DNA of 64,000 bases, taken from Posidonia oceanica. Lineage: Eukaryota; Streptophyta; Magnoliopsida; Alismatales; Posidoniaceae. Numbering within the stretch: position 1 is the stretch's first letter; every line of letters begins with the position of its first letter. The notes beneath the pieces are model-generated. The model was not told the origin of the DNA. It searched no databases and worked only from the letters and a program-made list of their open reading frames with translations. The stretch covers positions 12,403,001 through 12,467,000 of the forward strand of contig JAZBRS010000013.1 in the NCBI GenBank assembly GCA_037176725.1, written 5' to 3'. Below, one piece after another: positions 21,505 through 64,000 of this stretch. A program made the translations under genes and the position numbers.

Positions 21505-21748
21505 ATGCCCAGGAGGCCAAAGGCTCAAATGGGCTTGGGCCTTGGTTTAAAAAGTTTTTAAAAAAAGGTGTAAAAGGCTTGGGTGATGGTTTTGGGGTTT
21601 AAGGGGGGGTTTTAGGGTTGGTTTAGGAATGGGATTTGGTTTTTAAGTCAAAATGGGTTAATCTGAAAAAAGGAGAGCCATCCCAGAGTCCAGGCAAGTT
21701 TGCAGGAGAAACCACCATCTTCCAGGCTGTCATAATGGGGTGTCTACA

Positions 21749-38954: not shown

Positions 38955-41900
38955 TGTTGACACCCCATTTCGACAAGGCTGAATCGGCAGATCTCTCTGG
39001 CGGCTAGGAAAAACCCAAAATCGCACATTTCTCTTCATCCTTCTTCCCAAATCAAAACTCCAGCTCAAACCTCAAAGCCAAACCTAGAACCACACCCATT
39101 TTCTAACCCCAAAACCTTACCCTGGAACCGTCCCAAAACCTAACCCTGAAACCATCCAAAACCCAAGCCAAAACCAAACCCTAACCCTCCTTTTTACCCT
39201 TCAAAACTAGCCAACTTGACCTAAGCCTTTACCCCTCTTCCCGAGCTCAAAACTTGACCAAAATCCATAGGAAAATCCACCAACACCCACTCAACAAACC
39301 TACTCTAGAACCTAGAAATTTCTAAACCTAACCCATTCCCAAAAACCCTAGAAAACCTAGGTGAATTTCCCCTTTTTCTACACCTTGAAACCCCTCCAAA
39401 ACCTTCTTAGAATCAAACCAAAACCTCAGACCTAATGCCTTAAGCCCTAGACTACCCGCTCGCCAATTTTCATCCCATTCCGAGACCTTTAAGACCTCCA
39501 TTCACCCAAATTATCCTTTTCTCTCTCCAGGATTATCATTTTCTCTCTCCTCTCTCTCTCCTGATTATCATCTCCCTTTTCATCCCCTTCTTGCCCTTTC
39601 CCTGGCCTGGCTATGGGCCCCCTTTGTGCTTCTATCCCTTCTCTATCTTATTCCTATTTTTATTTTATTTTTAGCATTTTCTCTGAATTTTAAAAAATCA
39701 TTTCCCTCCAACTCATCTCTTTCCCTTTTATTTCTCCCTTTTTCCATTTTCTTCCTCCTTCTCTTTTCCTTTTCTTTCTTTTGCAAAGACCCATAAAAAC
39801 CCCTAAAAATCCATAAAATTCCAAAACATAAAAGAGACAAACCAGAACTCTAAGGAAAACAATTAAAAAACATTAAGCAATCAATTAAAAAACTTAAACT
39901 TAACTAAATCAAGCTAAAAAGAAAATCAAGCATGCAAACTAAAAAAATGCGAAACAAACCAAAATAAAATACTGAAAAATCTAGAAAAAACTAAAACAAA
40001 ACCAAGACCCACCAAAAGTAAAAACCCTACCAAAAGAATTAAAAATAAACCCTAAAAAAGAAGTGAAACAATTAAGAACACTAAGATAAGTGATTAATGA
40101 AAGAAAAAGCTTAACTTAACAAACCTAAGGAAAACAATTTAAGAACTCAATTAAAAAGAATGAAGAACACATCAAAAGGACTTGAAGACTCTTAATCAAA
40201 CAAGAGAAACCTAATTAAAAAACATCAAGAAAAATCAGCAAATAAAAATTAAAAAAACCTAATCCAAAAGACTTAAGAAAGAAAAACCCTAAGAAGACTA
40301 AAACTTAAAAACCTAAAAACAATCCTAATTAATATGAAAATAAATCCTAAAAAATCCTAATCAATATCCTAAAATGCTCAACAAGAAAAACACAATTTTT
40401 AAAACAATTTAAAAGGATTTAACAAACACTTAATCAAGTGAAAACTAATTAAAAGCAAAACCAAAACCCTAAAACCCTAATCAAGCCCAAAACACACTAA
40501 TTAACCTAAAAACAGTCACTAAAAATCTAATTAAAATCCTAACTCACAACACAACTTTTCTAGTATTTTTACTTATTTTTAGTTTATTTTTTTTCTTCTT
40601 CTAATTTTATTTCCTTTCTCTTCCTTTCTTCTTCTTCTTTACTTTCTTTCCCACTTCTCATTCCTCTCTTCCTCCCCTTCATTTTCTTTCCTTTTACTGT
40701 GCTCAAGGCCCAGCCCATGTCCAACTTCTTCTTCTTCCCTCCATCCCTTCTTCTTCTTCCACTCTCCTCCTCTCTCACAACCTGCAAACGACAACACCTC
40801 TCCCCATTGGTTTTCTTTTTTTCAAACCTCCCTGACACCACCTTGACCTTCCGGCCATCACCCATCACCCATGACCCAGACCACTTCCTCCATGCCCTGC
40901 CAATGGTAGCAGAAGACCAAGACTTCCCCTCACCTTGACCGACAGAAAATGCAGAGAGAGGGGGAGAACAAAACCCAGATTCCCACCCAAAAAAAGAAGA
41001 GTTCTTTCGACACCAAGCAACCCAGAGTGCTCCTGCTTCCTTGTGCATCTTCCACATCCAGAAACCACCCAGAAAACGACCTGAAACCCCCCCAAACAAC
41101 GATCTTCTCTTCACCTCACAGAGCAACCTTCCCCCTGGCCTCTCCAGCACCACAGTCATCAGAAGCCTCCCAGATCTCACCACCCAACTCACCAGACCAC
41201 CACCTTCACGACCCAACCCTCGCTTCAGTCCCAAACCTCCCACAGCCTCCACGAACCACCACAAACACCTTGCACGGAAACTGCCCAGAAACCTTCCAAC
41301 ATCCACACCACCTTCTTCAGACCTTGCCAACCCATTTAAACTCCTCCATCGCGTTCCTGGAGCCTCCAGCAACCCAGAGTGACCTCCACCTTGGCCCGAA
41401 GGGCCACACACCGCCCCGGCGACCTCAACCCCAACTTCGGCACCCAAAAACATTGGATCTCCCTCCGACGAGCGAAACGCACTTTTGGACGCATCGGGAG
41501 CTTCCCCAGCACGCGTGGAGCACACCGGTACCCCGCAGCAGCTCCCAGACCCCTTCGAACGCCGCCACTGTCCTCCTCCGGCCGGCCACAACCCACCGAC
41601 GTCGGGGGCACGATCCGGCTAGCGTAACAGGTGACTACCTATACCAATGTGTTCCTTGTGTGAATGTGGTCATTTCGACTATTTTTTCGGATTTTTTCAT
41701 GCATTGTGCCGCCCTCTGGGCCTCGCCGGAGTTGCCAACTCCGTCGACCAATCCCACCGCCTCCGCCGCGCGACGCCGCCGCCAGACCCGCGTGCCGCCT
41801 CCGCCAGCCTCCGGGCTACCGTACCACGCCTCCAGCTCTGTCCCAGGCCGCCGCCCGCCACTGCTCCACCATGCCCCGCCGCTGCTCCGCGCAGCCTCTG

Positions 41901-43529
41901 CCGGCAGCACAATGCTGCGCGCGGGAGGAAGGAGAAGGCACTGTAGCAATATTTGATGTTTTTAAAACTTAAATATAGTTTAGATGCATGCATTGAAATA
42001 AATTCTGTTATGTTTTTGTTATTACACTTTGGTCCTGTTTGATTTAAGATCTATTTAATTTTGATTTAAAATCATGTGGAATTACGGTTAAAATCTACAA
42101 TTTTGCTTATTTACACTTTCATCCAGCTGCAGTTCATGTTCTTTGGTTGCCTTTTAATTAAAGTCCTGCATGTTTCTTTTATTGCGTGATGGTCCTCTGT
42201 TGTTGTGATCCTAGTTGTACTACTTTGAATCTAGTCCAGTAAGTTGCCATATTTGCATATCAGTACGTTCTTAGTTCAACATGGCTTGCTACGCTTTATT
42301 GTTTGCCCCAGCATGTTTTTTATTTTTGCGTTTAGGTCCTTTAGATGTTGAATGCCATTTAAAAGCTTGCTGTTATCTTATTAAATTGCTGTTAAGTCCT
42401 GATCTTTGCATTATTTGCATGTTGGTCCTTTGATCTGTTATATCATGCATCCTGTTTGCATCCCCTGTTTACTGCATTGCATGCTTAGCTCTGGCTTCCT
42501 GATTTTGCATATAGGTCCTCTGCATCATGCATAGCATGCATTTAGCTTGCATTTTTCTTACGAAATTGCATTTCAACCCCTACATGTTTTAAAATTGCAT
42601 ATAGATCCTCCGTGCGGTTGCAAAGCGTATTCCAGTGCATGATTACTTTATTAGGTTGCATTTTGAACCCTGCATCCTGCAAAATTGCATCCAGACCCCT
42701 AAGCTTTCAAAAATCTTGCATAAAAAGCCTTGAACTTTTCAAAATCTTTGCATTTAAGTCCCTAATTTTCTGAAGAATCATCTTTAGGTCTTTTCTTGCA
42801 TTTTGCATGCATTGCACTCATGCATTCTTGCATTTTTGCACTCCTTGCACGCACTTAAACACTCTTAGCTCCCATTCGTAGGGGAGGACCTATTTTGCAC
42901 ACCCCTAGGACCTCCTGAACACTTAGATCTGTTCTTCTCTCCTGTTCTGGCCTTTCCGCCCTGAAGCTGCGATATCTTTCAATCCGGCCGTTGGATCTTC
43001 CTAAACAAGCTGCCCAGGCGACCGCAGTGAAGCGCTCTTCAGCACGGACCAAGCAGACTTCAGATCAGACCCCAGGATTTCCAGGTATGCCCTCCTGAAC
43101 CTTTGCACTGCATTCATTCGCATGCCATTTGCATAGTTTGCCTCGTTTTCGCTTTCGGTCTCTTTGAGCATGTAGAATAGGACCTCCCCTTCTTGTCTAT
43201 CAATTCCAATCCCCGTTTCGCGTATTCTTGAGTGTTTTGTGTTGTGTTTTCCCGGGTTTTGCCACTTAATGTGACTTTCTTCCCTCTTTTCCACGATCCG
43301 ATCGCATCGCGAGCTTTGGGCAGCGTGCGAGACACACCGTGGAGCGGTTTAGTGGGAAACGGTCACAAAGAGGCGGTAATCCCTCCGTTTGCTCACTCTC
43401 CCCTTTGCAGGTCTTTACACCTGCTCTGTGCGGCCCCGAACAGCGTCTGTTCTCACACACGCGCTGTCTTACCTCTCTTTGGCTTCTTCTGATCTTTTTC
43501 TTTGCATTAGCATTCGCATAGCTTTTCCG

Positions 43530-44500
43530 GGGTTTTGTTTCGCTGTTTTGGCACCGTTTTGCGTGCCTGCTTTGCTTTTGCACCGTTTTGCGCGCCCGTC
43601 TTGTTTTGGCACCATTTCGCGTGCTCGTAATCGTCTTTTTGCATCGTTTTGCGTGCCAATCTGTTTTGTTGTCTCGTTTTGCGTGCCGCCTTGCTTTTTC
43701 GCTCATTTTGCCTGTCGATTTCGTTTCTTTTGCACCGTTTTGCGTGCCATTCTGCTTTCTTGCCTCGTTTCGCGCCCGTCTTGTTTTTCGCTTGCTTTGC
43801 GTGCCGGTTTCGTTCTTTTTGCATCGTTTTGCGTGCCATTCTGTTTTGTTGTCTCGTTTTGCGTGCCGCCTTGCTTTTTCGCTCATTTTGCCTGCCGATT
43901 TCGTTTCTTTTGCACCGTTTTGCGTGCCATTCTGCTTTCTTGCCTCGTTTCGCGCCCGTCTTGTTTTTCGCTTGCTTTGCGTGCCGGTTTCGTTCTTTTT
44001 GCATCGTTTTGCGTGCCATTCTGTTTTGTTGTCTCGTTCTGCGTGCCGCCTTGCTTTTTCGCTCATTTTGCCTGCCGATTTCGTTTCTTTTGCACCGTTT
44101 TGCGTGCCATTCTGCTTTCTTGCCTCGTTCGCGCCCGTCTTGTTTTTCGCTTGCTTTGCGTGCCGGTTTCTTTCTTTTTGCATCGTTTTGCGTGCCATTC
44201 TGTTTTGTTGTCTCGTTTTGCGTGCCGCCTTGCTTTTTCGCTCATTTTGCCCGCCGATTTCGTTCTTTTTGCACCGTTTTGCGTGCCATTCTGCTTTCTT
44301 GCCTCGTTTCGGGGCCGTCTTGTTTTTCGCTTGTTTTGCGTGCCGATTTCGTTCTTTTTGCATCGTATTGCGTGCCATTCTGTTTTATTGTCTCGTTTTG
44401 CGTGCCGCCTTACTTTTTTTCGCTTGTTTTGCGCACCGGTTTCGCTCTTTCGCATCGTTTTGCGTGCGTTGTTCGCTTCCCGCCTCGTTTTGCGTGTTTC
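43530..44500. repeat. 30-bp minisatellite with 180-bp higher-order repeat in LTR B
   Basis: About 31 units of about 30 bp. From about 43640 to 44420 six different units form a 180-bp block repeated about four times; for example the line starting 43741 recurs at 43921 and, with a 1-bp loss, at 44101. This is newer amplification on top of the older 30-bp array. Long open frames across it are artefacts. Confidence 0.9.
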
Positions 44501-44572
44501 GCGCCGTTTTCTCTTGCATGTCGATCCCATTGCATGGTTTTTACGCTGTTTTGTTTTCTCACTTGCATTTGC

Positions 44573-44578
44573 ATATAG
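44573..44578 (+). promoter_or_regulatory. Candidate TATA-like element in B's LTR
   Basis: ATATAG within TTTGCATATAGGGC, just upstream of the conserved GATGCTTACTGCCTGGAG block. The same place reads ATATAA in F (18074-18079) and ATATAC in A (32142-32147), and is lost in E. If real, the R region would start about 30 bp downstream. No other evidence. Confidence 0.3.
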
Positions 44579-45154
44579 GGCTGTGATGCTTACTGCCTGG
44601 AGTTCTCACGAGCTAGGTTTCGCCTGGTTCGGAACACGGACAACGTAGCTGAGCACTTAGAGAGCACGTTTACTTCCCTGCCTTGCTTTTTTCCCACTTA
44701 GAGCACTCCTTGAGCATTCATTTAGGCATTCATAGGCACATAGGTATTCAATCCTGCATTTCCCTGCATATGCAAGCGTAAGCCTAGAAAGACCGATTCT
44801 CGGGCGTGTCGGGGGTGCCTAACACCTTCCCCGCGCGTAACAGGAGTCCTTGCCCTGTCTTCTGGCCCGCCATGACCATATTGCCCCTATCCTAGGCTAG
44901 AGTCATCTCATTTGCATTCATTTGCATTTGTTCTCCTTTGCACTGCTTTGCTTTGCATTTCATTCTTGGTTTTGCGTGTTAATCCACGCATTTCCCCCGG
45001 TTTTCCTTGTCTCCCGTTAATAGACATGGTGGCGACTCTGATTTGTCTTATCTTTCCCTTTTCTCCTCGATTTTAAGTGTTTTCGAGTTGAGCCTCTTCC
45101 TCGGATCCAATCGCCGCTAATTAGCGAGCCTGATTCCGATCGGGATCGCTACAG

Positions 45155-49400: not shown

Positions 49401-51334
49401 CTGTAGTAACCCAGCTTCCTTCCACTATCCCCTTAGAACCTGCTAGAACCACTCCTCCAGCTGCTAGGAGAAGCCAACCTAAAGCAGACTTAACCTCTCA
49501 GCTTAAGAAGGTCAAAGCCGACATCTCCATCTGGGATTTGATCCACACTTCTGCCGAACACCGCGAGGCTTTTCTTCGCGTGTTCCAGGCTGCTCGTGTG
49601 TCCCAGTCCATTGAGCCTTCTGCCTTGGAGAGCATGGTTGGGTTAATCGCGGAGCCCCAGGTCATCTCTTTTACGAGTGATGAGCTGCCTCCGGCGGGGA
49701 TTAATCACAACCAGCCCCTGTTCGTCACGGTGCAGTTCAAAAACTTCCGCATTCCCCTAACACTGGTTGATAACGGGTCAGGCCTTAACGTCTGCCCCTT
49801 GCGTACAGCAACCAAGCTCGGATTCAAAGCCGAGGATATCACGCCAGCCGTGAAGGGAATGACTGCTTTTGACAACACTCACCATGACGCTCTAGGGATT
49901 CTGATTATCCCTCTGGCTATCGGCCCGGTCGTCTTCGACGTAGAATTCTATGTCGTCGACTTGAAGCCTAACTTCAATCTTCTGCTTGGGCGCCCTTGGC
50001 TTCACAAGCATCAAGTCCTTCCTTCGACCCTCCATCGAATGATAAAGTACCGTCATGGCGATGATGTCATTGTCGTCATGGCGGAGAACTTTGAGAAGGA
50101 GCGGATCGAAGCAGTCTCTCCCGTGTCTTCGCAATCTATCCCATTTGACCCCGACACTTCTGAAGCCCTCTATCGTGTTAACCGGTGCGAGCCAGTTAAC
50201 TTCGTTCCTGATCTTGAACGTGTCAACTCCTTGACCGTTCACAGCAACCCCTTTCGAATGGTCGAGAATGTATGTCACAAGTGGGGTTACACAAAGGGTA
50301 CGCCGCTCGGGCGTCACGGCCAAGGGATCGCGGAGCCGATCGTAGCAGTGGAGCGAAGGAAGTCTGAAGGTCTCGGCTACGAACCAAAGCTCAACGAAGA
50401 TCGCTGCTTCCAGCTCAAAGATCGTGAAGCAGCCATTCCCAGAGACCTCACTAACTTTACCAGTGCAGGAATTCTGGGATCCACCAACGATCAAGCCACG
50501 ACGCCGACAGAGGATTGGGTGTGTGTTGAGGACTACTACTCGGATGAGGAGCAGTCTGGCACAACAGAGGCAGTCCCAATCAGCTCAGCAGAAACAGTGG
50601 TCAGAGCAGAGGCCCCACAGTCAGTCTTTTCAGCTCTCCCTCTGGCGGATATAGCAGGCAGCTCAGCAGGCCCTGTGGCAGAACAAGCAAGTTCCCACTC
50701 TTTTGCAGCCACGTCTGCATTACAAGTTCAGGCAGCGGTGCAGGAGTTAGAGACACTCCTTCTGACAGAACCAAACATGCTACCGACGGTCACAACCACA
50801 TCAGTGCCACTGTCCCCATCTCTGGAGGGACCATCTATCAGCTCAGCCAGCAACGCGGCTCAGCCCGCTCCAGCATCGTCCTCAGGAATGCAGCTGGCGC
50901 AGTCCGCTTCGCATTCTCCTGACAACCAGCAGCAGCTCTCATGGCAAGACCCCATGGCGTCAGAGGCTGCACTCTCTCAGTTACGGCCTGATACAAAAGG
51001 CCAACTGAGCACTACACTCTCTGGGCCCTTGAGCCCTCTAAAGAGCACCCCTGCTTACTCTCCAACTGTGACCCTGGCAGCTTATTCATCCTTAGCACCG
51101 CTAGCCTGTCTATTTGGGCCATCTACGTCAGAGTTGCCACCATCGGACGCGCCCGTGAACCAGATCATGCAGACCCCAAGGGCGGTGATCTGTCTTGCAG
51201 CCGAGCCAGTGCCGCAGGCCCCCGGCGCCTACTACGTCGACTCCCCCTCAGACGAAGAAGAAGGAGTGGCGATAGAAGCCCAGGTCGATTCCTGGATGTC
51301 CGACTTAGAGTTGCTTTATCAAGAACAACTCTAG
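46484..51334 (+). CDS. gag: B gag-protease polyprotein
   Basis: The ATG at 46484 (MAQYVSEP) has a purine at -3 and G at +4 and is conserved in A and E; the frame upstream lacks ATG. 1,616 residues, then TAG. Domains by residue: Pro-rich N-terminus (1-320), capsid-type gag region (about 350-520), Ser/Asn tract (about 535-560), zinc knuckle with C672, H675, H680, C685 (C-H-H-C instead of the usual C-C-H-C), Pro-rich linker with a 25-residue tandem duplication (about 831-880) absent from A, aspartic protease with D1096 in VDNGSG, and an acidic linker. Gag packages the RNA and PR cuts the polyprotein. The TAG at 51332-51334 is AAG in A and ACG in E; the frame continues beyond it. Confidence 0.93.
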   Translation: MAQYVSEPSFTPVTEGVSVPAPPVAPSVPLVPPPTPGFPPLTSLGSQYTPGQWQASLPPDPVAESILTAVTRAPETPLPPPPQGYVAFDIPSTAAATFSIESFPPGQSVSVPLVSQPPPALHFSVPTGETPEAHYQHLMELAQRLQGMALSVRPPSVPVVPEVPPRPVPAFLASTSTPPPRPSSQLLTVPTMGARLPPPPAQHLAQHAPLPSGGQPFGSAGAQYLTGSLSGTPPAQQLVLRHPTPVPAQHGIYSSPLPQVQHPAYTPAYTIPQHGYVGHPVAPPGDAMVDPEEHLGATHSAYVLATPADPSPPAAIQDPINNRMDVLEKALRLVQGTEHQTYQFRDLCCFPEAVLPPKFKIPDFEKYNGRGCPVAHLKAYCGDLAQLQADERLLIRLFQKSLTGPALKWFTSLDMSAIKTWNDLSQAFLEQYSFNLDLVPKRADLIAIKQNSGEPFGEYVGRWRALASQVRDRPSDEESIEIVIKGAQPSLGALLSIQPVTTFAALIRAGARVESSLRSGNFPALSAFAKQAAISSSSANSSISNNNNSGSNSNRPKRKDSPKPAVAFVDSPAVPVRLPSRPAPAQMVYAPAPRNPHTPHITTTARPVYPAAPVQQGPYPRQRRPPTERRNFTPLVEPLTVILPKVASLLKFPEVRPPPSPLLHWFRSDLFCNFHRSVGHSTDNCFSLRNAIQDLIESGTIVIDTHEASTQARTHASASPAVPLHSGIVRQPLPEHSYPGGAGTSGVHSVFPSGPATSEVDPSDLISDISEPFPISLYLAAVTGSESGIHLIRPRARPEHPLAPPTVLPQAQSPVHLLARAQPSSPIHLLGRPQPHLLGRPQPAPAFPPQQPYPLDRPRLHLLGRPQPAPAFPPQQPYPLDRPQYPVGPPVTPPVLAARAPVVFDLTLDTHRVPYSYATEMCAEVTRSGRVYRPPVPATRPTHPRPVMPPPSSQPIADPTPDQPVVSQIPTQPVVTQLPSTIPLEPARTTPPAARRSQPKADLTSQLKKVKADISIWDLIHTSAEHREAFLRVFQAARVSQSIEPSALESMVGLIAEPQVISFTSDELPPAGINHNQPLFVTVQFKNFRIPLTLVDNGSGLNVCPLRTATKLGFKAEDITPAVKGMTAFDNTHHDALGILIIPLAIGPVVFDVEFYVVDLKPNFNLLLGRPWLHKHQVLPSTLHRMIKYRHGDDVIVVMAENFEKERIEAVSPVSSQSIPFDPDTSEALYRVNRCEPVNFVPDLERVNSLTVHSNPFRMVENVCHKWGYTKGTPLGRHGQGIAEPIVAVERRKSEGLGYEPKLNEDRCFQLKDREAAIPRDLTNFTSAGILGSTNDQATTPTEDWVCVEDYYSDEEQSGTTEAVPISSAETVVRAEAPQSVFSALPLADIAGSSAGPVAEQASSHSFAATSALQVQAAVQELETLLLTEPNMLPTVTTTSVPLSPSLEGPSISSASNAAQPAPASSSGMQLAQSASHSPDNQQQLSWQDPMASEAALSQLRPDTKGQLSTTLSGPLSPLKSTPAYSPTVTLAAYSSLAPLACLFGPSTSELPPSDAPVNQIMQTPRAVICLAAEPVPQAPGAYYVDSPSDEEEGVAIEAQVDSWMSDLELLYQEQL

Positions 51335-54300
51335 TCAATAGCAGAAGACCTGGCAGACCATCAAGCTGCAGAAAGGAAAGGAAAAGCCGTAGTTACGGAT
51401 CCTCCTCTGCAGGAGGACCATACCACTATCATGGTCCTAGAAGACTCAGCAATGCCGGACTCCCCTAGACCAGATGAGCTCATCACTCTTCAACCAGAAG
51501 GCGGGTCTAGGTGGTTTGTGCAACCCATGCCTCACCTGAACAATATACCGAGCGGCAGTAACCAGATCAGCCGCCAGTCTGGCGTATCCCCCACAAGCAC
51601 ACTAGAAGACCCAGAGGGAGGAACATCAGCAGTACATGCAGCAGCAGTAACAGAGCAGAATGCCTCAGCAGCAGAGCAGAATGCCTCAGCGGTAGAACAG
51701 TCAGCAGTATCAGCAGTAGAGTCAGCTAAGCCATCAGCAGTATCAACAGAGCACTCAGCAGAGCCAGTCAGGCCAGAGCAAACAACAGAAGGAGTTGCTG
51801 GGACGGAGGTCGCGCACCGAGGCTACAAGAATACTCGAGTGAGCGTGACCATCCTGAAGCGTCACCAGGGCCAAGCAGCGGAACACATGCACTCTTTCAA
51901 CATCACAAACCCTTCCTTCGAGAAAGAGATCCTCTCAGAACTTATTGCCTATGGAGAGGAAGATGATACGGGCATGGACGAGACTGACGAACCTTTGCCC
52001 GAGTTCCGACCCTATGACGACGACCCAGAAGGCCCCAATCTCCATGTTGAAGAAGAAACGGAGGTTGTCAACATCGGCACAGCTGAGGAAGTCAGAGAAG
52101 TTTGCATCAGTGCCCAGCTGTCCACCCAGGTTCGAGCAGAATTCATCGCATTCCTGAAAGAATATGCGGATGTCTTCGCCTGGAGTTATGAAGATATGGT
52201 CGGCCTTGACATAGAGATAGTGGTGCACAATCTGCCATTAAATCCGGATGCCAAGCCAGTAAAGCAGAAACTAAGAAGATGGCGACCGCAGTGGCTGCTC
52301 ATGATCAAAGAAGAGATAATGAAGCAGCTTGGAGTCAACTTTCTGAAGGTCGTTCTTTATCCTGAATGGCTGGCAAACATTGTACCTGTGCCCAAGAAAG
52401 ATGGCCGAATCCGGATCTGTATCGACTACAGGGACCTGAACAAGGCGAGTCCCAAGGACGACTTTCCATTGCCTCACATTGATGTCCTAGTCGACAATAC
52501 AGCAGGCCACAAGATGCTCTCCTTCATGGACGGCTTTTCTGGATACAATCAGATCAAAATGGCAGAAGAGGACATGGAAAAGACTTCATTCATCACCCCT
52601 TGGGGAGTCTTCTGCTACCAAGTCATGCCGTTCGGCCTGAAGAATGCTGGTGCAACCTATCAAAGGGCCATGACTGCGCTATTCCACGACCTCATGCACC
52701 AAGAAGTGGAGGTCTATGTAGACGACATGATTGCCAAAACCAAAGAGCCCGAGGATCATCTTGCCTGTCTCAGAAAGCTCTTTGACCGTCTACGGAAGTA
52801 CAAGCTGCGCCTGAATCCCAAGAAGTGCGTATTCGGGGTATCTTCTGGCAAATTGCTCGGCTACATTGTCAGCCAAAGGGGGATTGAGGTGGACCCGTTG
52901 AAAGCACAAGCCATCGTGGACATGCCACCCCCTAGAACTGAAAAGGAAGTCAGAAGTCTGCTTGGGCGTTTACAATATATCAGTCGCTTCATTGCACAGC
53001 TTACGCCCATCTGCGAACCCATATTCAAGCTCTTAAGGAAGAATGCGCAGATTCACTAGAGCGAGGAGTGCCGGGCTGCATTTGCCAAGATCAAGCAGCT
53101 GCTGATCAAGCCTCCTGTCCTGGTCCCGCCTACGCCAGGGAGACCTTTGCTTCTCTACCTTTCTACCACGCAGCATTCCATGGGCGCCGTCTTGGGCCAA
53201 CATGACGAATCTGGTAGAAAGGAGCGCGCCATCTACTACCTGAGCAAGAAATTTAATGAATGTGAAGCCAGGTACACAACACTAGAGAAGACTTGCTTGT
53301 CCCTTGTCTGGGCTGCACAGAAGCTGAGGCACTACATGATGGCATACCCAGTACAGCTCTTATGCCGGCACGATCCCATCAAATTCCTCTTCCAGAAGCC
53401 GGCCATGGTGGGCAGATGTGCTAAGTGGCAGGTGTTATTGTCTCAATACGACATCACCTTCGTCACACAGAAATCCATGAAGGGTCAAGCAATGGCAGAC
53501 CATCTTGCTGACCTCCCTCTGCCTGAATACCAACCCCTCCAGACGCAGTTCCCTGATGAAGACATTCTCTTTGCAATGGAGGACTCTGAGCAGAAAGATC
53601 CTGAAGAAGCAGAGGAATGGCAGCTCTACTTTGATGGTGCAGTCAACAAGAAGGGCCGAGGCGTAGGCGCAGTGCTGACCACGCCCCAAGGACAGATGAC
53701 TCCTTTCGTGAGGAAGCTGACTTTCACCTGCACAAACAACGAAGCAGAATACGAAGCATGCATCCTGGGGTTGAAAGTCGCCCTCGAGCATGAGGCGCAG
53801 AAGCTGCATGTGCACGGCGATGCCATGCTGGTGGTTTCTCAAGTGAACGGCGATTGGAAGACAAAAGATCCCAAGCTTGTGCCGTATCACGAACACCTGC
53901 TGAGGCTGATGAAAGAATTCAAGAGCATCCGCTTCACATACCTGAACAGAGCGAAGAACGCGTATGCAGACGCACTAGCAACTCTGGCATCCTGGCTCAC
54001 TATATCAGAAGACAGCACTATGGATGTATCAGTCACTCGCATTGAGCAGCCTGCATACTGCATGAGCATAGAAGAAGCGGATCCCGCAGAGGGGCAGCCC
54101 TGGTATCAAGACATAAAATCTTTCCTGGAGTCTGGTAACTTTCCTCCTGATACCACGGCAGCAGACAAGAGAACTTTGGCGCGTCTGGCGTCAAAGTATG
54201 TGTTAGGGGCCGGGCAGCTATACAGAAGGTCTTACAATCAGATGCTACTGCGCTGCCTGAACAAGTCGGAGGCTGACACGCTGATGCTTCAAGTGCATGC

Positions 54301-55342
54301 GGGAACTTGTGGCCCGCACATGAATGGCGTCCTCCTGGCCAAGAAGATCATGCTTCAAGGATATTTCTGGCAGACCATGGAAGCCGACTGCTGCCGGTTC
54401 GTGCGTAGATGCCATAACTGTCAAATTCATGGTAACTTCATCAAGGCCCCTCCACATCAGCTGCACAACATGTCTTCGCCATGGCCTTTCTCCACCTGGG
54501 GGATCGATGTCATCGGCGCCATCCACCCCGCTGCTTCAAATGGTCATCGTTACATTCTCGTAGCGATCGATTACTTTACCAAGTGGGTGGAAGCGGCCTC
54601 TTACAGGACAGTCACCGCTGCGGCAACAGAAAAATTTATCAGAAACAATATTGTTGCCTGGTATGGGGTCCCGCACTCTGTCATCTCTGATAACGGCTCA
54701 AACTTTATTGCCAAAAGGATCGAAGAATACCTGCAAAGTCTCAAGATCAAGCACCATCGATCCTCGCCTTATCGGCCTCAGATGAACGGAGCAGTGGAAT
54801 CTGCAAACAAAAACATTGCCAAGATCCTGAAGAAAATGGCAGAAATCCACAAGGATTGGCATGACAAGCTCCCGTACACACTCTGGGCGTACAGGACATC
54901 AATACGGACCTCTACAGGAGCCACCCCGTACTCTCTGGTGTACGGCATGGAAGCAGTGTTACCTGTTGAAGTGGAGATCCCCTCCCTGCGGATCCTGCGG
55001 GAAGCTGAGTTGGAAGAAGCAGAATGGGTCGAAGACCGCTGCGTCCAACTGAACTTAATTGATGAGCGCAGATTGCAAGCCATGCATAACGCTCACTGCT
55101 ATCAGAAGCGGATGGCCAAAGCATTCTTGAAGAAGGTCCAGCCCAGAAGCTTTCAGCCAGGGGACCTTGTCTTGCGCGCCATTCTTTTGCCTGACGGTCG
55201 AGGGAAATTCCGACCCAATTGGCGCGGCCCATTTGTGGTCAAACAGATCTTCTCGGGAGGCGCTGTGACTCTTGAGGATATGGACCAGATTGAGCAGTCT
55301 GAGCCCATCAACCTCTGCTATCTCAAGAAGTACTATCAGTAG
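51335..55342 (+). pseudogene. pol: B pol: RT, RNase H, archaeal-type RNase H, integrase; one internal amber
   Basis: Continues gag-PR in the same frame after the TAG at 51332. Numbering from the gag ATG: variable Ala/Ser/Glu linker, RT with FMDGFSGYNQ and YVDD at 2078-2081, an amber codon at 53057-53059 (residue 2192; Trp in E), gypsy RNase H (about 2220-2290), second RNase H with D2384, E2422 and D2446 and YADALATLAS, integrase with HHCC region, D2675, D2736 and E2772 (a DD35E spacing) and a C-terminal part with NWRGPF. Ends KKYYQ and TAG at 55340-55342. Apart from the two ambers the 2,953-codon frame is open. A single recent G-to-A change would explain the second amber. Confidence 0.9.
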
Positions 55343-56850: not shown

Positions 56851-58053
56851 ATGGGCTTCCCTACTCTGCTAACTCCTGCACATTGCTCGGAAGCCCTGCG
56901 AGAATGGATCGGCAGGCTCACTCAAGTAGACTGTGAAAAGCTGCGCCTGTGGGGCATACCAACTAAACTGCTGAAGGCTGCTGATGTGGAAGTCAGCCGC
57001 CACCTTCTGTGTGCCGCCGCAAGATTCTGGAAACCGGCACACCACGTCTTCCGCTTTGGCAAGACTGAACTGACACCTACACTGGAAGAGGTGCGTCGGA
57101 TCTGTGGCTTTTCAAAGATCATGGGGCCGCCTATTTTCATGAGGCGAGACGGATATCTCGAAGTCCTAAGCCAGCTGACTGGGCTATCCACTCGAACCTG
57201 CCAACAGAAACTAATCTGCACCAGTGGACCAGAGCCCATGCTTCGCCTTGCACACTTCAATGATATCATGAACAAGCGTGCTGACCTCGGAGATGAGCTG
57301 TGGCTCCGAGGATTCGTCATCCGCTTTCTGGGCGAGCTGATCTTTACTCATGGCCGACTGACAGTGGCCATCGAGGTCGCAGAGATTGCACTAGCTGTGG
57401 TGACCCAGCACGTAGACCTGGCACCAGTTGTCTTGGCAGAGACCTATCGCGGGCTGGACCGCATTTCTCATCGCTGCCGCCACTTCCACGGTTGCGGAGC
57501 ACTCATACAAGTCTGGCTGACCGCGCACTTAGAGATGGACCTTCTACGCCCTCAAATGCATGCTTTCGAAGCTTACTGCAGCGGCGCCCATACCAGAGCA
57601 GACAAGAGTGTCAAAGACGAGTACGAGAGGCTGTCAGCACTGACTGACGACGCTGTGACCTGGCGTATCACTCCCTCTGCAGCCGAGCCATTCACTGTCT
57701 TTTTCAGCGCGCGCGACACGCGACTGATCGTCCTTCCAGGCTTCACAGCAGGCGTAGAGTACCACCCAATCAGGGTCATGCGCCAGTTCGGCTTCCAGCA
57801 GGGCGCCTTCATCGACAGTACAGCGCCCAAGCTTCTACAGACGTACCCTCTCAGCACAACTGCCCCAACCAAGAAGCTTGCTAGTCTGATGCAGCATGGG
57901 GTCCAATCCATAGACATTGCAGCTGTGAGAGGTGTAGGATGCACCCCTGAATATGAAGCTGAAGTCCGACAGCTCTGGCCTATTACTGAAATTCCGCCAA
58001 GCGGCCCCTTGTTCCCCGACTCCAGACAGTCGAAGAAGGCCCGAACTGACTAG
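56851..58053 (+). CDS. B additional ORF: intact PMD-like protein, 400 aa
   Basis: Starts MGFPTLLTPAHCSE, ends KKARTD. Features typical of plant mobile domain proteins: an N-terminal HHVFRFGKTELTPTLEEVRRICGF segment (residues about 68-91; the family has F..GE.T.TL.DV..L.G), and YHPIRVMRQFGFQQ (residues about 305-318; the family has RV.RQFG..Q). No signal peptide or membrane segment is visible; the C-terminus is basic. PMD proteins include the Arabidopsis MAIN/MAIL1 group and are known to be carried by plant transposons. The ORF sits 1.5 kb after pol in the same orientation, also in C and E, so its capture predates these insertions. A role in silencing evasion or targeting would be speculation. 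Confidence 0.85.
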   Translation: MGFPTLLTPAHCSEALREWIGRLTQVDCEKLRLWGIPTKLLKAADVEVSRHLLCAAARFWKPAHHVFRFGKTELTPTLEEVRRICGFSKIMGPPIFMRRDGYLEVLSQLTGLSTRTCQQKLICTSGPEPMLRLAHFNDIMNKRADLGDELWLRGFVIRFLGELIFTHGRLTVAIEVAEIALAVVTQHVDLAPVVLAETYRGLDRISHRCRHFHGCGALIQVWLTAHLEMDLLRPQMHAFEAYCSGAHTRADKSVKDEYERLSALTDDAVTWRITPSAAEPFTVFFSARDTRLIVLPGFTAGVEYHPIRVMRQFGFQQGAFIDSTAPKLLQTYPLSTTAPTKKLASLMQHGVQSIDIAAVRGVGCTPEYEAEVRQLWPITEIPPSGPLFPDSRQSKKARTD

Positions 58054-58328
58054 GCCCTTGTGCAACCATCATATGGTCTTCTTTCAGACTATGCTGTACA
58101 TTTCTGGCCTGCCACAGGCATTGTACCTACCAAGCTTTATCAATGAAAAACTGTTTCTGCTTTCTGCTTGCACATCAAGTTTCTTTGCTGTATTGCATAT
58201 CATTATCATCACCATCTTGGGCCCTCTAACCAGACTTGCAGGCATCACAACGCAGTAAAGTCCTCAGCACCCAATCCGGAGTCCAGAACATCTGCGGACC
58301 CGCGTCGTCAAGCTACGCCATCCGGCGT

Positions 58329-58910
58329 CCTCAGCTGATCATCCCCAGCTGAGTCCTCTGCGGGCTGGCACCCCAAACTGCCCGGTGAAAGGTCCGTCAA
58401 CCTGTCATCATCCTCAGCTGATCATCCCCAGCTGAGTCCCTTGCGGGCTGGCACCCCAAACTGCCCGGTGAAAGGTCCATCAACCTGTCATCATCCTCAG
58501 CTGATCATCCCCAGCTGAGTCCCTTGCGGGCTGGCACCCCAAACTGCCCGGTGAAAGGTCCGTCAACCTATCATCATCCTCAGCTGATCATCCCCAGCTG
58601 AGTCCCTTGCGGGCTGGCACCCCGAACTGCCCGGCGAAAGGTCCGTCAACCTGTCATCATCCTCAGCTGATCATCCCCAGCTGAGTCCCTTGCGGGCTGG
58701 CACCCCAAACTGCCCGGCGAAAGGTCCGTCAACCTGTCATCATCCCCAGCTGAGTCCTCTGCGGGCTGGCACCCCAAACTGCTCGGCGAAAGGTCCGTCA
58801 ACCTGACACTCTTCTCGGCTGATCACCTCAGCTGAGTCCCCAACTGATCGCCCTCAGCTGAGTCCCCTACGGGCTGGCACCCCAAACTGCTCGGCGATGG
58901 GTTCGTCAAC
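58329..58910. repeat. 83-bp tandem array
   Basis: Units start CCTCAGCTG at 58329, 58412, 58495, 58578 and 58661, exactly 83 bp apart with few changes, followed by two shortened or altered units. Each full unit holds the inverted repeat CTCAGCTG...CAGCTGAG with a short loop. Confidence 0.93.
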
Positions 58911-58948
58911 CTATCATCCATCCACTCGCTCATTTATCTTTGCATCCT

Positions 58949-59350
58949 GATGCCAGGGGCGCTTCGGACATCCCCTGGTATCATCCTGATACCAGGGGCA
59001 TCTTTTGGCTGCCCTGCAGTATCATCCCCAGCTGATCGCCCTCAGCTGAATCCCTTGCGGGCTGGTACCCCAAACTACTCGTCTGACAAGCACGACACTC
59101 TTGTCATCACTCTCTGCTTTCGATGCCAAGGACGCGCTGGCCAACCCCTGGTGTCATCCCGACACCAGGGGCATCTTTTGATCGCCCCTTGGTATCGTTC
59201 TTTCCCTCTTTCCCCTATGACGTTCCTGGCGTCATGGGATGATTTCTTCTCATCATTCCCTTACCCCTTCTTTGCCGGCCGATAAGTCCGATATCTTATC
59301 ATTCTCATCATTCCCTCATCCCCTCTTTGCCGGCCGATAAGTCCGATATC
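58949..59350. repeat. Group of long inverted repeats
   Basis: Includes GATGCCAGGGG...CCCCTGGTATC (58949-58982), a perfect 11-bp pair CCCCTGGTGTC (59145-59155) and GACACCAGGGG (59161-59171) with a 5-base loop, TGACG...CGTCA near 59218-59235, and two copies of GATAAG...CTTATC near 59281 and 59337. Variants change in both arms. Confidence 0.7.
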
Positions 59351-59364
59351 TTATCAATCAACAA

Positions 59365-59790
59365 TTCTCATCATGATCTCATCCCCCTCTTTAGCTTAAA
59401 TTCTCATCATGATCTCATCCCCCTCTTTAGCTCAAATTCTCATCATGATCTCATCCCCCTCTTTAGCTTAGCTTCTCATCATGATCTCATCCCCCACTTT
59501 AGCTTAGCTTCTCATCATGATCTCATCCCCCTCTTTAGCTTAAACTCTCATCATGATCTCGTCCCCCTCTTTAGCTTAGCTTCTCATCATGATCTCATCC
59601 CCCTCTTTAGCTTAAACTCTCATCATGATCTCATCCCCCTCTTTAGCTTAGCTTCTCATCATGATCTCATCCCCCTCTTTAGCTTAACTTCTCATCATGA
59701 TCTCATCCCCCTCTTTAGCTTAAATTCTCATCATGATCTCATCCCCCTCTTTAGCTTAACTTCTCATCATGATCTCGTCCCCTCTTATCA
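59365..59790. repeat. 36-bp tandem array, 12 units
   Basis: Units start TTCTCATCATGATCTC at 59365 and then every 36 bp to 59761. Each contains the palindrome ATCATGAT. Only a few bases vary, mainly at the unit ends (AAATT, AGCTT, AACTT, AACTC). Confidence 0.95.
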
Positions 59791-59814
59791 TCAACCAATC
59801 ACTCGTGCTAGGCT

Positions 59815-60849
59815 GATATCCGAAACTATCAATCATCAATCAAACTCGTGCTAGGCTGATATCCGAAACTATCAACAATCAATCACTCTCAGGCTGATAA
59901 CCTAAACTATCTTCTGGCCGATCCATGGTTGGCCCGCAGTTGTGTTATACGGCTGACATCCAGTAACTGTCCCTCGTAATTGCACTTTTCCAGTTGATAG
60001 GTCTGTAAACTATCCGCCGGTTGACAGGACCGTAAACTGTCGCTCCAGTTGATAGGTCTGTAAACTATCGCGTGCAATTACGTTATACGGCTGACATCCA
60101 GTAACTGTCCCTTGCAATTGCGGTTTCCAGTTGATAGGTCTGTAAACTATCCTCCAGTTGATAGGTCTGTAAACTATCCGCCGGTTGACAGGACCGTAAA
60201 CTGTCGTTAGGCTGATATTCCTAAACTATCACCAGCAATTGCATTATACGGCTGATATCCAGTAACTATCCCTCATCATTGTGCGTTTCCAGTTGATAGG
60301 TCTGTAAACTATCCGTCGGTTGACAGGACCGTAAACTGTCGCTCCAGTTGATAGGTCTGTAAACTATCCACCAGTTGGTAGGACTGTAAACTACCACGCG
60401 CAATGATGTTATACGGCTGACATCCAGTAACTGTCCCTCGCAATGCCATTTCCAGTTGATAGGTCTGTAAACTATCCTCCAGTTGATAGGTCTGTAAACT
60501 ATCCGCCGGTTGACAGGACCGTAAACTGTCGTTCCAGATGATAGACTGTAAACTATCCGGCATTGCGTTATACGGCTGATATCCAGTAACTATCACTCAT
60601 GGTTTGTGGTTTCCGGTTGACAGGACCGTAAACTGTCGCTCCAGTTGATAGGTCTGTAAACTATCCACCGGTTGACAGGACCGTAAACTGTCGTTAGGCT
60701 GATACTCCTAAACTATCACCCACAACCATGTTATACGGCTGATATCCAGTAACTATCACTCACAACTGCTCCGGTTGACAGGACCGTAAACTGTCACTCC
60801 CAGTTGATAGGACCGTAAACTATCCGGACGATAAGCCCGTCACCTTATC
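59815..60849. repeat. Covarying hairpin array with nested outer arms
   Basis: About 31 short inverted repeats. Twenty are of type GATA(G)...(C)TATC, ten GACA(G)...(C)TGTC, one GGTAG...CTACC; in every unit I read, a change in one arm is matched in the other. A linker GTTATACGG recurs before the GA(T/C)ATCC type. Groups of three or four hairpins are bracketed by longer complementary arms: 59975-59985/60072-60082, 60113-60121/60235-60243, 60275-60286/60396-60407, 60439-60447/60559-60567 and 60598-60609/60720-60730. The arm sequences differ between groups. GCAGTTGTG (59936-59944) and CACAACTGC (60761-60769) would close the whole set. Confidence 0.9.
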
Positions 60850-61327
60850 ATTTTTTTTCTCCTTTTCGGCGTAACCTTGTCCCAGGAAGACAAAGTCACG
60901 CACCCCCTTTCTGCGATAGGAGAGTTGGCCTCTCTCCCCTCGCACTCTTTTCTTTCCTGCTGGCTTGTTCCCCAGACGGGGACAAGCTGCACCCTGTTTC
61001 CCCTCGCTTTGTCGCGTGAGTTTGGCCTCCCTGCCAGATCCTCGCGCCACATCGCGTCCTTTTATCTTCTCTCTTGCATCATCTCCGCACCTTCTCAGCT
61101 AGCATTGCATATTAATTTAACATCATCAGCATCACTTGCGTGGCATCAGCATCTCTTCTAGTTGCACTAACTTTTGTACTAACTTTTGCATCGCATTAGC
61201 ATGCATTGCATACTTAGCATCATTCATCTGCACCTAGCATCTTGCATTGCGGCAATGGGCTACGACGTTCGGTGCATCCGCCGAATAAGTAACTCACGCC
61301 AATAGCAAATCTTTTGGCCCTCCGGTC

Positions 61328-61411
61328 AAATGGGGTGTCTTGTCAACCCTGAGCAGCGGTCTCGGTCCCCTTGACCTCGCTCAGGGAGGGGCATCTGTTG
61401 ACACCCCATTT
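61328..61411. other. Inverted repeat across the 3' spacer/3' LTR junction
   Basis: AAATGGGGTGTC (61328-61339) is the exact complement of GACACCCCATTT (61400-61411) in the LTR start. Between them GTCAA (61342-61346) can pair with TTGAC (61399-61403, overlapping alternative) and CCCTGAGC (61347-61354) with GCTCAGGG (61379-61386), leaving a 24-base loop. The PPT lies on the right arm. Confidence 0.75.
61383..61391 (+). other. B polypurine tract (candidate)
   Basis: AGGGAGGGG, four bases before the 3' LTR start at 61396, the expected place for the plus-strand primer. Confidence 0.7.
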
Positions 61412-64000
61412 CGACAAGGCTGAATCGGCAGATCTCTCTGGCGGCTAGGAAAAACCCAAAATCGCACATTTCTCTTCATCCTTCTTCCCAAATCAAAACT
61501 CCAGCTCAAACCTCAAAGCCAAACCTAGAACCACACCCATTTTCTAACCCCAAAACCTTACCCTGGAACCGTCCCAAAACCTAACCCTGAAACCATCCAA
61601 AACCCAAGCCAAAACCAAACCCTAACCCTCCTTTTTACCCTTCAAAACTAGCCAACTTGACCTAAGCCTTTACCCCTCTTCCCGAGCTCAAAACTTGACC
61701 AAAATCCATAGGAAAATCCACCAACACCCACTCAACAAGCCTACTCTAGAACCTAGAAATTTCTAAACCTAACCCATTCCCAAAAACCCTAGAAAACCTA
61801 GGTGAATTTCCCCTTTTTCTACACCTTGAAACCCCTCCAAAACCTTCTTAGAATCAAACCAAAACCTCAGACCTAATGCCTTAAGCCCTAGACTACCCGC
61901 TCGCCAATTTTCATCCCATTCCGAGACCTTTAAGACCTCCATTCACCCAAATTATCCTTTTCTCTCTCCAGGATTATCATTTTCTCTCTCCTCTCTCTCT
62001 CCTGATTATCATCTCCCTTTTCATCCCCTTCTTGCCCTTTCCCTGGCCTGGCTATGGGCCCCCTTTGTGCTTCTATCCCTTCTCTATCTTATTCCTATTT
62101 TTATTTTATTTTTAGCATTTTCTCTGAATTTTAAAAAATCATTTCCCTCCAACTCATCTCTTTCCCTTTTATTTCTCCCTTTTTCCATTTTCTTCCTCCT
62201 TCTCTTTTCCTTTTCTTTCTTTTGCAAAGACCCATAAAAACCCCTAAAAATCCATAAAATTCCAAAACATAAAAGAGACAAACCAGAACTCTAAGGAAAA
62301 CAATTAAAAAACATTAAGCAATCAATTAAAAAACTTAAACTTAACTAAATCAAGCTAAAAAGAAAATCAAGCATGCAAACTAAAAAAATGCGAAACAAAC
62401 CAAAATAAAATACTGAAAAATCTAGAAAAAACTAAAACAAAACCAAGACCCACCAAAAGTAAAAACCCTACCAAAAGAATTAAAAATAAACCCTAAAAAA
62501 GAAGTGAAACAATTAAGAACACTAAGATAAGTGATTAATGAAAGAAAAAGCTTAACTTAACAAACCTAAGGAAAACAATTTGAGAACTCAATTAAAAAGA
62601 ATGAAGAACACATCAAAAGGACTTGAAGACTCTTAATCAAACAAGAGAAACCTAATTAAAAAACATCAAGAAAAATCAGCAAATAAAAATTAAAAAAACC
62701 TAATCCAAAAGACTTAAGAAAGAAAAACCCTAAGAAGACTAAAACTTAAAAACCTAAAAACAATCCTAATTAATATGAAAATAAATCCTAAAAAATCCTA
62801 ATCAATATCCTAAAATGCTCAACAAGAAAAACACAATTTTTAAAACAATTTAAAAGGATTTAACAAACACTTAATCAAGTGAAAACTAATTAAAAGCAAA
62901 ACCAAAACCCTAAAACCCTAATCAAGCCCAAAACACACTAATTAACCTAAAAACAGTCACTAAAAATCTAATTAAAATCCTAACTCACAACACAACTTTT
63001 CTAGTATTTTTACTTATTTTTAGTTTATTTTTTTTCTTCTTCTAATTTTATTTCCTTTCTCTTCCTTTCTTCTTCTTCTTTACTTTCTTTCCCACTTCTC
63101 ATTCCTCTCTTCCTCCCCTTCATTTTCTTTCCTTTTACTGTGCTCAAGGCCCAGCCCATGTCCAACTTCTTCTTCTTCCCTCCATCCCTTCTTCTTCTTC
63201 CACTCTCCTCCTCTCTCACAACCTGCAAACGACAACACCTCTCCCCATTGGTTTTCTTTTTTTCAAACCTCCCTGACACCACCTTGACCTTCCGGCCATC
63301 ACCCATCACCCACGACCCAGACCACTTCCTCCATGCCCTGCCAATGGTAGCAGAAGACCAAGACTTCCCCTCACCTTGACCGACAGAAAATGCAGAGAGA
63401 GGGGGAGAACAAAACCCAGATTCCCACCCAAAAAAAGAAGAGTTCTTTCGACACCAAGCAACCCAGAGTGCTCCTGCTTCCTTGTGCATCTTCCACATCC
63501 AGAAACCACCCAGAAAACGACCTGAAACCCCCCCCAAACAACGATCTTCTCTTCACCTCACAGAGCAACCTTCCCCCTGGCCTCTCCAGCACCACAGTCA
63601 TCAGAAGCCTCCCAGATCTCACCACCCAACTCACCAGACCACCACCTTCACGACCCAACCCTCGCTTCAGTCCCAAACCTCCCACAGCCTCCACGAACCA
63701 CCACAAACACCTTGCACGGAAACTGCCCAGAAACCTTCCAACATCCACACCACCTTCTTCAGACCTTGCCAACCCATTTAAACTCCTCCATCGCGTTCCT
63801 GGAGCCTCCAGCAACCCAGAGTGACCTCCACCTTGGCCCGAAGGGCCACACACCGCCCCGGCGACCTCAACCCCAACTTCGGCACCCAAAAACATTGGAT
63901 CTCCCTCCGACGAGCGAAACGCACTTTTGGACGCATCGGGAGCTTCCCCAGCACGCGTGGAGCACACCGGTACCCCGCAGCAGCTCCCAGACCCCTTCGA
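61396..64000 (+). repeat. B 3' LTR, first 2,605 bp
   Basis: Aligned by eye with 38955-41558, I saw three substitutions and one extra C (near 63530). It runs off the window. No gene is supported; the open frames mirror those of the 5' LTR. Confidence 0.95.

Follow-up and report, generated by a model that had tools for sequence, protein, structure and literature searches.

What is the array of short repeats that lies behind the coding region of a large retrotransposon of Posidonia oceanica, and could it work as an RNA structure? The array was analyzed within a window of 64,000 nucleotides (assembly GCA_037176725.1, contig JAZBRS010000013.1, positions 12,403,001 to 12,467,000, forward strand), which holds several nested plant long terminal repeat (LTR) retrotransposons; all coordinates below are those of the window. 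In the focal element, filed here as Ogre-like, a preliminary description made from the letters alone had noted, at 59936..60769, five groups of three or four hairpins between complementary arms that might fold at three levels. We propose that this array is the core of a structured 3' non-coding RNA domain of about 2.5 kb that would act in the sense RNA for export, stability or packaging, a reading whose chances we put at about even. Structure at the RNA level appears probable, and a role in export, stability or packaging, judged on its own and by analogy, is tentative.

Arms, groups and separators of the array

The array is composed of the following parts, where A to F denote unit types and S1 and S2 the two stems of a unit.

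59936..60769, + strand: closed array, an outer helix 59936-59944/60761-60769 (9 bp) around six separators and five groups
59975..60082, + strand: group 1, arms 59975-59985/60072-60082 (11 bp), units A-B-A
60113..60243, + strand: group 2, arms 60113-60121/60235-60243 (9 bp, self-palindromic core), units A-A-B-D
60274..60408, + strand: group 3, arms 60274-60285/60397-60408 (12 bp, one G-U), units A-B-A-C
60439..60567, + strand: group 4, arms 60439-60447/60559-60567 (9 bp), units A-A-B-E
60598..60730, + strand: group 5, arms 60598-60609/60720-60730 (12 bp, 1-nt bulge), units B-A-B-D
59945..60758, + strand: six separators TTATACGGCTGAYATCCAGTAACTRTC, starting at 59945, 60083, 60244, 60409, 60568 and 60731
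60771..60849, + strand: tail beyond the outer helix, with unit B (60771), unit F with a broken S1 (60800) and a candidate GATAAG pseudoknot (60825)

All six arm pairs were found where they had been described, and the groups contain 3, 4, 4, 4 and 4 units, that is, 19 units and six separators within the outer helix. The register is regular: a separator (...AACTRTCMCT) stands directly 5' of each left arm, and the right arms adjoin TTATACGG. The sequence reported to follow each right arm was indeed present, with the exception of group 2, where ATTATACGG and not GTTATACGG follows (the base in question belongs to the arm). The caution that the group 2 arm is palindromic was also justified, as the listed core shows. 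A repeat finder described the whole array as 5.2 copies of a 162-bp period.

As had been claimed, the arms complement each other within a group and differ between groups. When all left arms were matched with all right arms, the proposed assignment ranked first among the 720 permutations, and did so again when Watson-Crick pairs were counted. The own partner scored best for all six left arms and for five of the six right arms, the exception being the first (outer) right arm (59936-59944), whose score with left arm 2 (24) exceeds that with its own partner (23); the p-values of single arm pairs ranged from 0.0005 to 0.008. After trimming to 11 nt and ungapped alignment, the arms have Watson-Crick pairs in 57 of the 66 cells (58 with G-U); in 5000 column shuffles, in which the 3' letters were redealt per column, this number averaged 37.6 and never exceeded 50. 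Both sides changed at 10 of the 11 positions (3.9 in shuffles), and the covariation score was 0.70 (0.32 in shuffles, 0.06-0.20 with slid partners); neither value was reached in any of 500 shuffles, which, it should be noted, ignore the kinship of the groups. The number of further pair types was unremarkable (205 of 500 shuffles). Between groups, the 30-nt separators are 94% identical, compared to 55% for the right arms and 47% for the left arms. The arms have changed fast yet kept their fit.

Complementary arms could also arise without any function. Hairpin copying perfects imperfect palindromes, which yields complementary arms and changes that look compensatory, and together with template switching during reverse transcription it might have made both the repeats and the arms, the fold being a mutational by-product; the resemblance of unit F to an A/B chimera is consistent with such an origin. 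We consider this explanation somewhat unlikely, because the arms are far more diverged than the separators that adjoin them, and because those of groups 3 and 5 pair through a G-U and a bulge and are not perfect copies.

The complementarity of the arms was matched by the free folds. As RNA, 59900-60860 reached −282 kcal/mol (z = −3.6) and none of 20 shuffles was as low; the comparison with shuffled controls, named beforehand as a possible refutation, thus did not refute the fold. In the unconstrained fold of 59936-60770 as sense RNA (z = −3.43; 1 of 150 shuffles as low), the mean pairing probability was 0.99 for the outer helix, which joins the first right arm to the last left arm as had been supposed, and 0.99, 0.99, 1.00 and 1.00 for the closing helices of groups 1 to 4; that of group 5 reached 0.85 and 0.91 on either side of its bulge. 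All six closing helices returned, at 0.85-1.00, when the full stretch 58054-61395 was folded and helices of at least 6 bp were listed. The proposed three-level multibranch fold is therefore supported for the group and outer closing arms, and its lowest level is more aptly described by H-type pseudoknots than by hairpins, as argued below. Within the array, ATAGGTCTGT of adjoining A units (60134-60170) can self-pair through G-U (10 bp, probability 0.88), which may represent an alternative fold or a dimer contact.

As single-stranded DNA, 59900-60860 folded just as significantly (z = −3.64; 0 of 20 shuffles as low). This favors a feature of the DNA itself, namely single strands or a cruciform acting in replication, recombination or chromatin, or in the seeding of satellites, and repeats in the 3' untranslated region (3'UTR) of Ogre elements do seed satellites, according to the available text of PMC7004042. 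Nevertheless, we rate a DNA-level feature as very unlikely: a cruciform cannot hold two crossing stems together, and the loop lengths of the units suit a knot in the sense RNA.

Repeat units as candidate pseudoknots

Judged by their letters, the units resemble H-type pseudoknots more closely than simple hairpins. In CCAGTTGATAGGTCTGTAAACTATC, for example, GATAG/CTATC is the hairpin noted in the preliminary description, and its loop contains CTG, which pairs with the CAG just 5' of the hairpin. This crossing pattern recurs as CGGT/ACCG with GACAG/CTGTC, CAGT/ACTG with GGTAG/CTACC, TTAGG/CCTAA with TGATA/TATCA, and CGG/CCG with GATAAG/CTTATC. In a list of 33 units that was picked by eye and left out a set of upstream 83-bp repeats, the upstream flank pairs with the loop, giving two crossing helices, in 30 units, compared to 9 with mirror-image downstream pairing under the same rules. 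An exact motif scan of 58101-60900 gave 34 matches, compared to 5.8 (standard deviation 2.0) in 30 shuffles. Motifs of at least 8 bp numbered 27 in 58328-60850, compared to 2.2 in 400 shuffles (maximum 8) and to 0-8 per strand in 23 window tiles outside the region. Under stricter rules, the upstream flank pairs with the loop in 25 of 41 perfect hairpins here and in 55 of 360 elsewhere. When flanks were swapped among 28 distinct hairpins, a mean of 6.9 and a maximum of 14 were obtained in 2000 swaps against 15 observed (p = 0.0005). The crossing S1 also speaks against a mutational by-product, since hairpin correction perfects one nested helix and not two that cross.

The structured stretch is longer than had been noted: it includes the array and extends over about 58328-60850. 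Upstream of the array it contains the following features.

58328..58923, + strand: 83-bp repeats with an 8-bp hairpin CTCAGCTG/CAGCTGAG and candidate pseudoknots GGG-ct-GGCA-CCC-caaac-TGCC and CGG...AGGT-CCG-tca-ACCT (the latter by eye only)
59121..59197, + strand: closing helix of 11 bp (one G-U) around an 11-bp hairpin (59145-59171)
59275..59355, + strand: two identical candidate pseudoknots CGG-cc-GATAAG-t-CCG-atat-CTTATC
59363..59786, + strand: pyrimidine-rich 36-bp tandem repeat, 11.8 copies
59801..59911, + strand: three repeat units, with AGG/CCT and GATA/TATC in one and a GG/CC of just 2 bp in each of the others

The exact motif scan found no pseudoknot candidates in the 36-bp repeat, which parts two structured stretches like a linker. 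At 58948-58998, the strand CCCCTGGTATCA can pair either with TGATGCCAGGGG upstream (one G-U) or with TGATACCAGGGG downstream; these two mutually exclusive 12-bp helices perhaps form a switch. A covariance model of the units, built on S2 only from the 33 training units, gave 36 matches in the window, all on the + strand and within 58444-60824; 32 of these are its own training units, whose recovery is expected by design. The highest-ranking others, three units of the 83-bp repeats (58444, 58527 and 58693), match weakly (E = 0.21).

Of the 25 positions, units A and B differ at 5; these comprise a compensatory pair in each of S1 and S2 and a single change through which S1 of B gains a fourth pair. 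A and C differ at three, which comprise one S2 pair and a change that adds an S1 pair as in B. S1 covaries in this way (G-C in B where A and C have A-U), and S2 of the separators (GAYA/TRTC) covaries as well. Of all cells in a near-gapless alignment (6 distinct rows among 19), 97.9% are paired, a value reached in 1 of 500 shuffles and falling to 15-38% with slid partners; compensation was found in both helices, at one S1 and two S2 positions among the 6 distinct rows, and further pair types were fewer than in shuffles. In a wider alignment (33 units, 14 distinct), 90.5% of the cells are paired, and none of 500 shuffles was as high. This compensation is supportive of knots, without being proof of them. 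Without loop costs, the stacking energies of the stems in each knot sum to −10 to −17 kcal/mol, and the best nested folds of lone array-type units reach −1.0 to −7.3 kcal/mol. Where A-A or A-C adjoin, the CAG of the next unit could pair with the loop of the previous one, which is a possible reason for the alternation of unit types.

A simpler possibility is a plain multibranch RNA in which S2 hairpins stand within the closing arms and S1 is incidental. Of the two stems, S2 varies less (96.8% of its cells in the wider alignment are paired, compared to 81% for S1), and when A, B and C units are folded singly, S2 makes up the hairpin of the best nested structure. We nonetheless find this quite unlikely in view of the excess of upstream over mirror-image pairing, the higher share of such hairpins here than elsewhere, and the covariation of S1. 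Moreover, the nested fold picks S1 as the hairpin in D units, and in the fold of the whole array most units lose to cross-pairing.

For the candidate pseudoknots, the loops bear on the strand. L1, between S1 and S2, is 1-2 nt long in 23 of the 30 units with an S1, and L3, before the 3' half of S2, is 4 nt long in 21 of these 23 and mostly A-rich; in the units with a short L1, S2 has 4-6 bp and S1 has 3-4 bp. An L1 of 1-2 nt together with an L3 of about 4 nt over such stems is textbook H-type geometry; in an antisense knot, a loop of 1-2 nt would have to cross the shallow groove of a 5-bp stem. The sense strand is preferred because these lengths suit an H-type knot on the sense strand and would strain one on the antisense strand, and we take the sense RNA as the acting form.

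Proposed role and related RNA structures

In the explanation that we put forward, the bricks of the array would be H-type pseudoknots of 24-25 nt, ordered as S1 (3-5 bp), L1 (1-2 nt), S2 (4-6 bp), S1', L3 (mostly 4 nt and rich in A) and S2'. A closing helix with a private sequence would bundle three or four knots, a separator, perhaps itself a knot, would join the bundles, and one outer helix would close them all. Such an array would have originated when a unit of about 162 bp was duplicated in tandem, after which the stems underwent compensating changes. Private arms and unlike neighboring knots would allow the bundles to fold without mispairing with their neighbors, and the compact, multivalent domain, bound by Gag or by an RNA-binding protein of the host, would then most likely act in the sense RNA to promote export, stability or packaging of the unspliced genomic RNA, much as transport elements do towards the 3' end in retroviruses. 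We propose a cis-acting role in the genomic RNA because the place, the size and the arm stability suit it; that the fold forms in the cell, is selected and has a function is what we infer. In the Ogre elements of pea and Medicago, an intron is spliced from only a subset of transcripts, as stated in a part of PMC6317226. If the focal element splices likewise, its full-length RNA must therefore leave the nucleus with the intron. A bolder and rather doubtful generalization is that the hypervariable repeats of Ogre/Tat elements are fast-evolving, self-orthogonalizing RNA architectures, selected for a function of the genomic RNA rather than for sequence, in which pseudoknots would be the bricks and private arms the addresses.

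Several observations weigh against a knotted domain that acts in the sense RNA. The evidence comes from one copy of one element. Three of the chosen units lack the upstream pairing (unit F at 60800 with its broken S1, and those at 59809 and 59852 with a 2-bp S1), and six of the 30 paired units are separators with a doubtful knot geometry; their S1 is GG/CC alone or TACGG/CC(a)GTA with a tight 2-nt L3, which makes them weak candidates. The 3 pairs changed on both sides in the near-gapless alignment were reached by 41 of 500 shuffles, and the corresponding number in the wider alignment by 12 of 500. In the wider alignment, 8 of the 42 S1 cells are unpaired, partly through alignment shift (D units, and separators off by one base). 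Since the repeats are related by duplication, independent compensations are few. In the free nested fold of 59936-60770, the mean probability of S2 stems exceeded 0.5 in only 3 of 25 cases (19 units and 6 separators), and units pair with each other, as two A units do. The folding program forms no pseudoknots, and its folds do not give the energy of knots relative to cross-paired rivals; the low probability of the unit stems therefore counts against plain hairpins and does not measure the stability of knots. These 3 of 25 cases slightly reduce our confidence both in the proposed sense RNA domain, which we place at even, and in the generalization to self-orthogonalizing architectures.

The choice of strand meets objections of its own. 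Motif matches on the minus strand also exceed those in shuffles (13 compared to 5.8 in the exact scan, 11 compared to 2.2 for motifs of at least 8 bp), an excess that is expected and not independent because the reverse complement of the motif is the same motif with its loops exchanged. Nested energies were alike on both strands of 59936-60770 (antisense z = −3.39, 0 of 150 shuffles as low, compared to the sense value of −3.43), and because these values are nearly equal, folding energy does not tell the strand; with 20 shuffles each, 59900-60860 gave z = −3.59 in sense and −1.98 in antisense (1 of 20 as low in antisense). Among matches of at least 10, there are 3 G-U and 11 A-C wobble-type pairs, which at face value speaks against the sense strand; the G-U pairs lie in three long arms on the sense strand, and the A-C pairs in six shorter, mostly palindromic matches. 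As for the role, the pseudoknot of Ty1 binds a Gag fragment, yet a part in packaging could not be demonstrated, as reported in a section of PMC4974528.

The repeats closest to the array in position are those of the 3'UTR of Tat, Ogre and Retand elements, which are likewise tandem, family-specific and located between the coding region and the 3' LTR, but which the available portions of PMC7004042 and PMC11963269 describe as repeats and seeds of satellites. Repeats between pol and the 3' LTR have been reported repeatedly in the Tat lineage, and their origin and eventual function are called unknown in the available text of PMC11963269. None of the terms hairpin, pseudoknot, secondary structure or inverted repeat occurs in the main text of PMC11963269, PMC7004042 and PMC6317226. 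Similarly, no such array appeared in titles or abstract starts among the matches listed by a full-text literature search, whose scope mostly excludes subscription journals. The array suggests that hypervariable filler repeats could be working RNA structure. If the repeat unit is a pseudoknot and the arms are private, the role of the repeats becomes directly testable and the array would show that RNA architecture which is both modular and orthogonal occurs in nature. If the self-orthogonalizing generalization held, such arrays would represent a novel class of structured, modular RNA, and this would account for repeats that diverge so much from family to family yet recur at the same place.

Other structured RNAs resemble the array in part. 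The upstream pseudoknot domain of the tobamovirus 3'UTR also consists of consecutive small pseudoknots in a plant RNA, structure is said to matter over sequence, and it interacts with the host factor eEF1A; it has three pseudoknots, however, and no arms or hierarchy are described in the relevant part of PMC4683447. Type III antitoxins (ToxI and CptI) are tandem repeats of which each is an H-type pseudoknot, with an L1 of one base in CptI, but they are bacterial and their units of 36 or 45 nt are cut by a toxin RNase, as given in excerpts of PMC4627078, whereas the array consists of 25-nt candidate knots nested in arms within a retrotransposon. Retroviral transport elements share structured or repeated RNA: the constitutive transport element (CTE) of Mason-Pfizer monkey virus lies close to the 3' end that all viral mRNAs share, the direct repeats of Rous sarcoma virus are also 3'-ward (PMC12789967), and the MusD transport element contains a pseudoknot (PMC12786077). 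Their export function is known, whereas that of the array is a guess, and no knot array is described in the parts of these two papers concerned. The 5' pseudoknot of Ty1 resides in the genomic RNA of an LTR retrotransposon, is a binding site of a Gag fragment in vitro, and interferes with retrotransposition when disrupted; in contrast to the array, it is single and located at the 5' end, according to the passages of PMC4974528 on it.

A scan of 57000-62000 against Rfam (E up to 5) returned one match, to SNORD101 (E = 3.1, minus strand, below the cut-off), and thus no described RNA family for the array. The wording CTGATA...GAAAC in some units resembles the hammerhead core, which the scan did not confirm, and a hammerhead was rejected along with other described ribozymes and RNA families. 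No match to a CTE was obtained, the presence of a CTE model among the families being unchecked, and only the 3'-ward position fits. For a type III antitoxin, there was likewise no Rfam match, and the one neighboring open reading frame (ORF) examined encodes a plant mobile domain (PMD) and not an RNase toxin. Exact patterns gave 0 matches for the unit in viral contigs and 0 for the separator in bacterial and archaeal contigs. Four stretches of viral contigs matched a pattern for PMD relatives, none being a relative, and none of 21 candidates in the protein collection matched the antisense ORF of the array at E = 0.1.

Host element and surroundings of the array

The array sits between the end of the PMD ORF (58053) and the 3' LTR of the focal element, whose LTRs start at 38955 and 61396, 22.4 kb apart. 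Its main features are:

38955..45153, + strand: 5' LTR, TG...CA, about 6.2 kb (exact ends read by eye)
51431..55342, + strand: pol, with a reverse transcriptase (RT) ORF (51431-53059) and an ORF for RNase H (RH), archaeal-type RNase H (aRH) and integrase (INT) (53147-55342) in the same frame, with stop(s) between them
56851..58053, + strand: extra ORF with a PMD (Pfam PF10536, E = 3.3e-20)
from 61396, + strand: 3' LTR, running off the window

The insertion is young, because the LTR stretches 38950-41558 and 61391-64000 are 99.8% identical over 2610 bases. Pfam identified RVT_1 in the RT ORF and, in the RH-INT ORF, RT_RNaseH (3-101), RVT_3 (162-280), H2C2 (372-428) and rve (447-544), in this order. 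A second RNase H between RH and INT is a mark of Ogre and Retand, and a PMD extra ORF was reported in 57% of Ogre elements; non-chromoviruses reach up to about 24 kb with LTRs up to about 5 kb (all from parts of PMC6317226). The focal element has the second RNase H at this place, a trait it would share with Retand, as well as the PMD ORF, a large size and long LTRs, its 5' LTR of about 6.2 kb (by eye) exceeding the published range. On the second RNase H and the PMD ORF, we file it as Ogre-like (Tat lineage, Ty3/gypsy), a placement made by domains and not by a tree.

Within 46325-55342, a long ORF in the gag-pro position, the RT ORF and the RH-INT ORF share one frame and are divided by stops at about 51334 and 53059; the former fits the two-ORF layout of Ogre, and the latter looks like an interruption of pol. 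No second array was found in the window: a minus-strand element (about 1-12.5 kb) leaves the window at its PMD gene, and in the other minus-strand element an LTR start (about 22784) lies directly behind the PMD region. This PMD-containing element (21700-23580, minus strand) has its LTR-like start TGTAGACACCCC at about 22784 and a further such start, by eye, near 21748. Tandem repeats of about 30 bp occur in three related elements, at 17461-17974, 31837-32065 and 43547-44467, the last lying inside the 5' LTR of the focal element. Many of them contain GGCAC-cgttttgc-GTGCC or TGCGC-cgtttt-GCGCA hairpins, of which 12, 2 and 1, respectively, are perfect. Finally, an 8-bp hairpin CCCTGAGC/GCTCAGGG at 61347-61386, with a pairing probability of 1.00, stands directly before a purine-rich tract and the 3' LTR.
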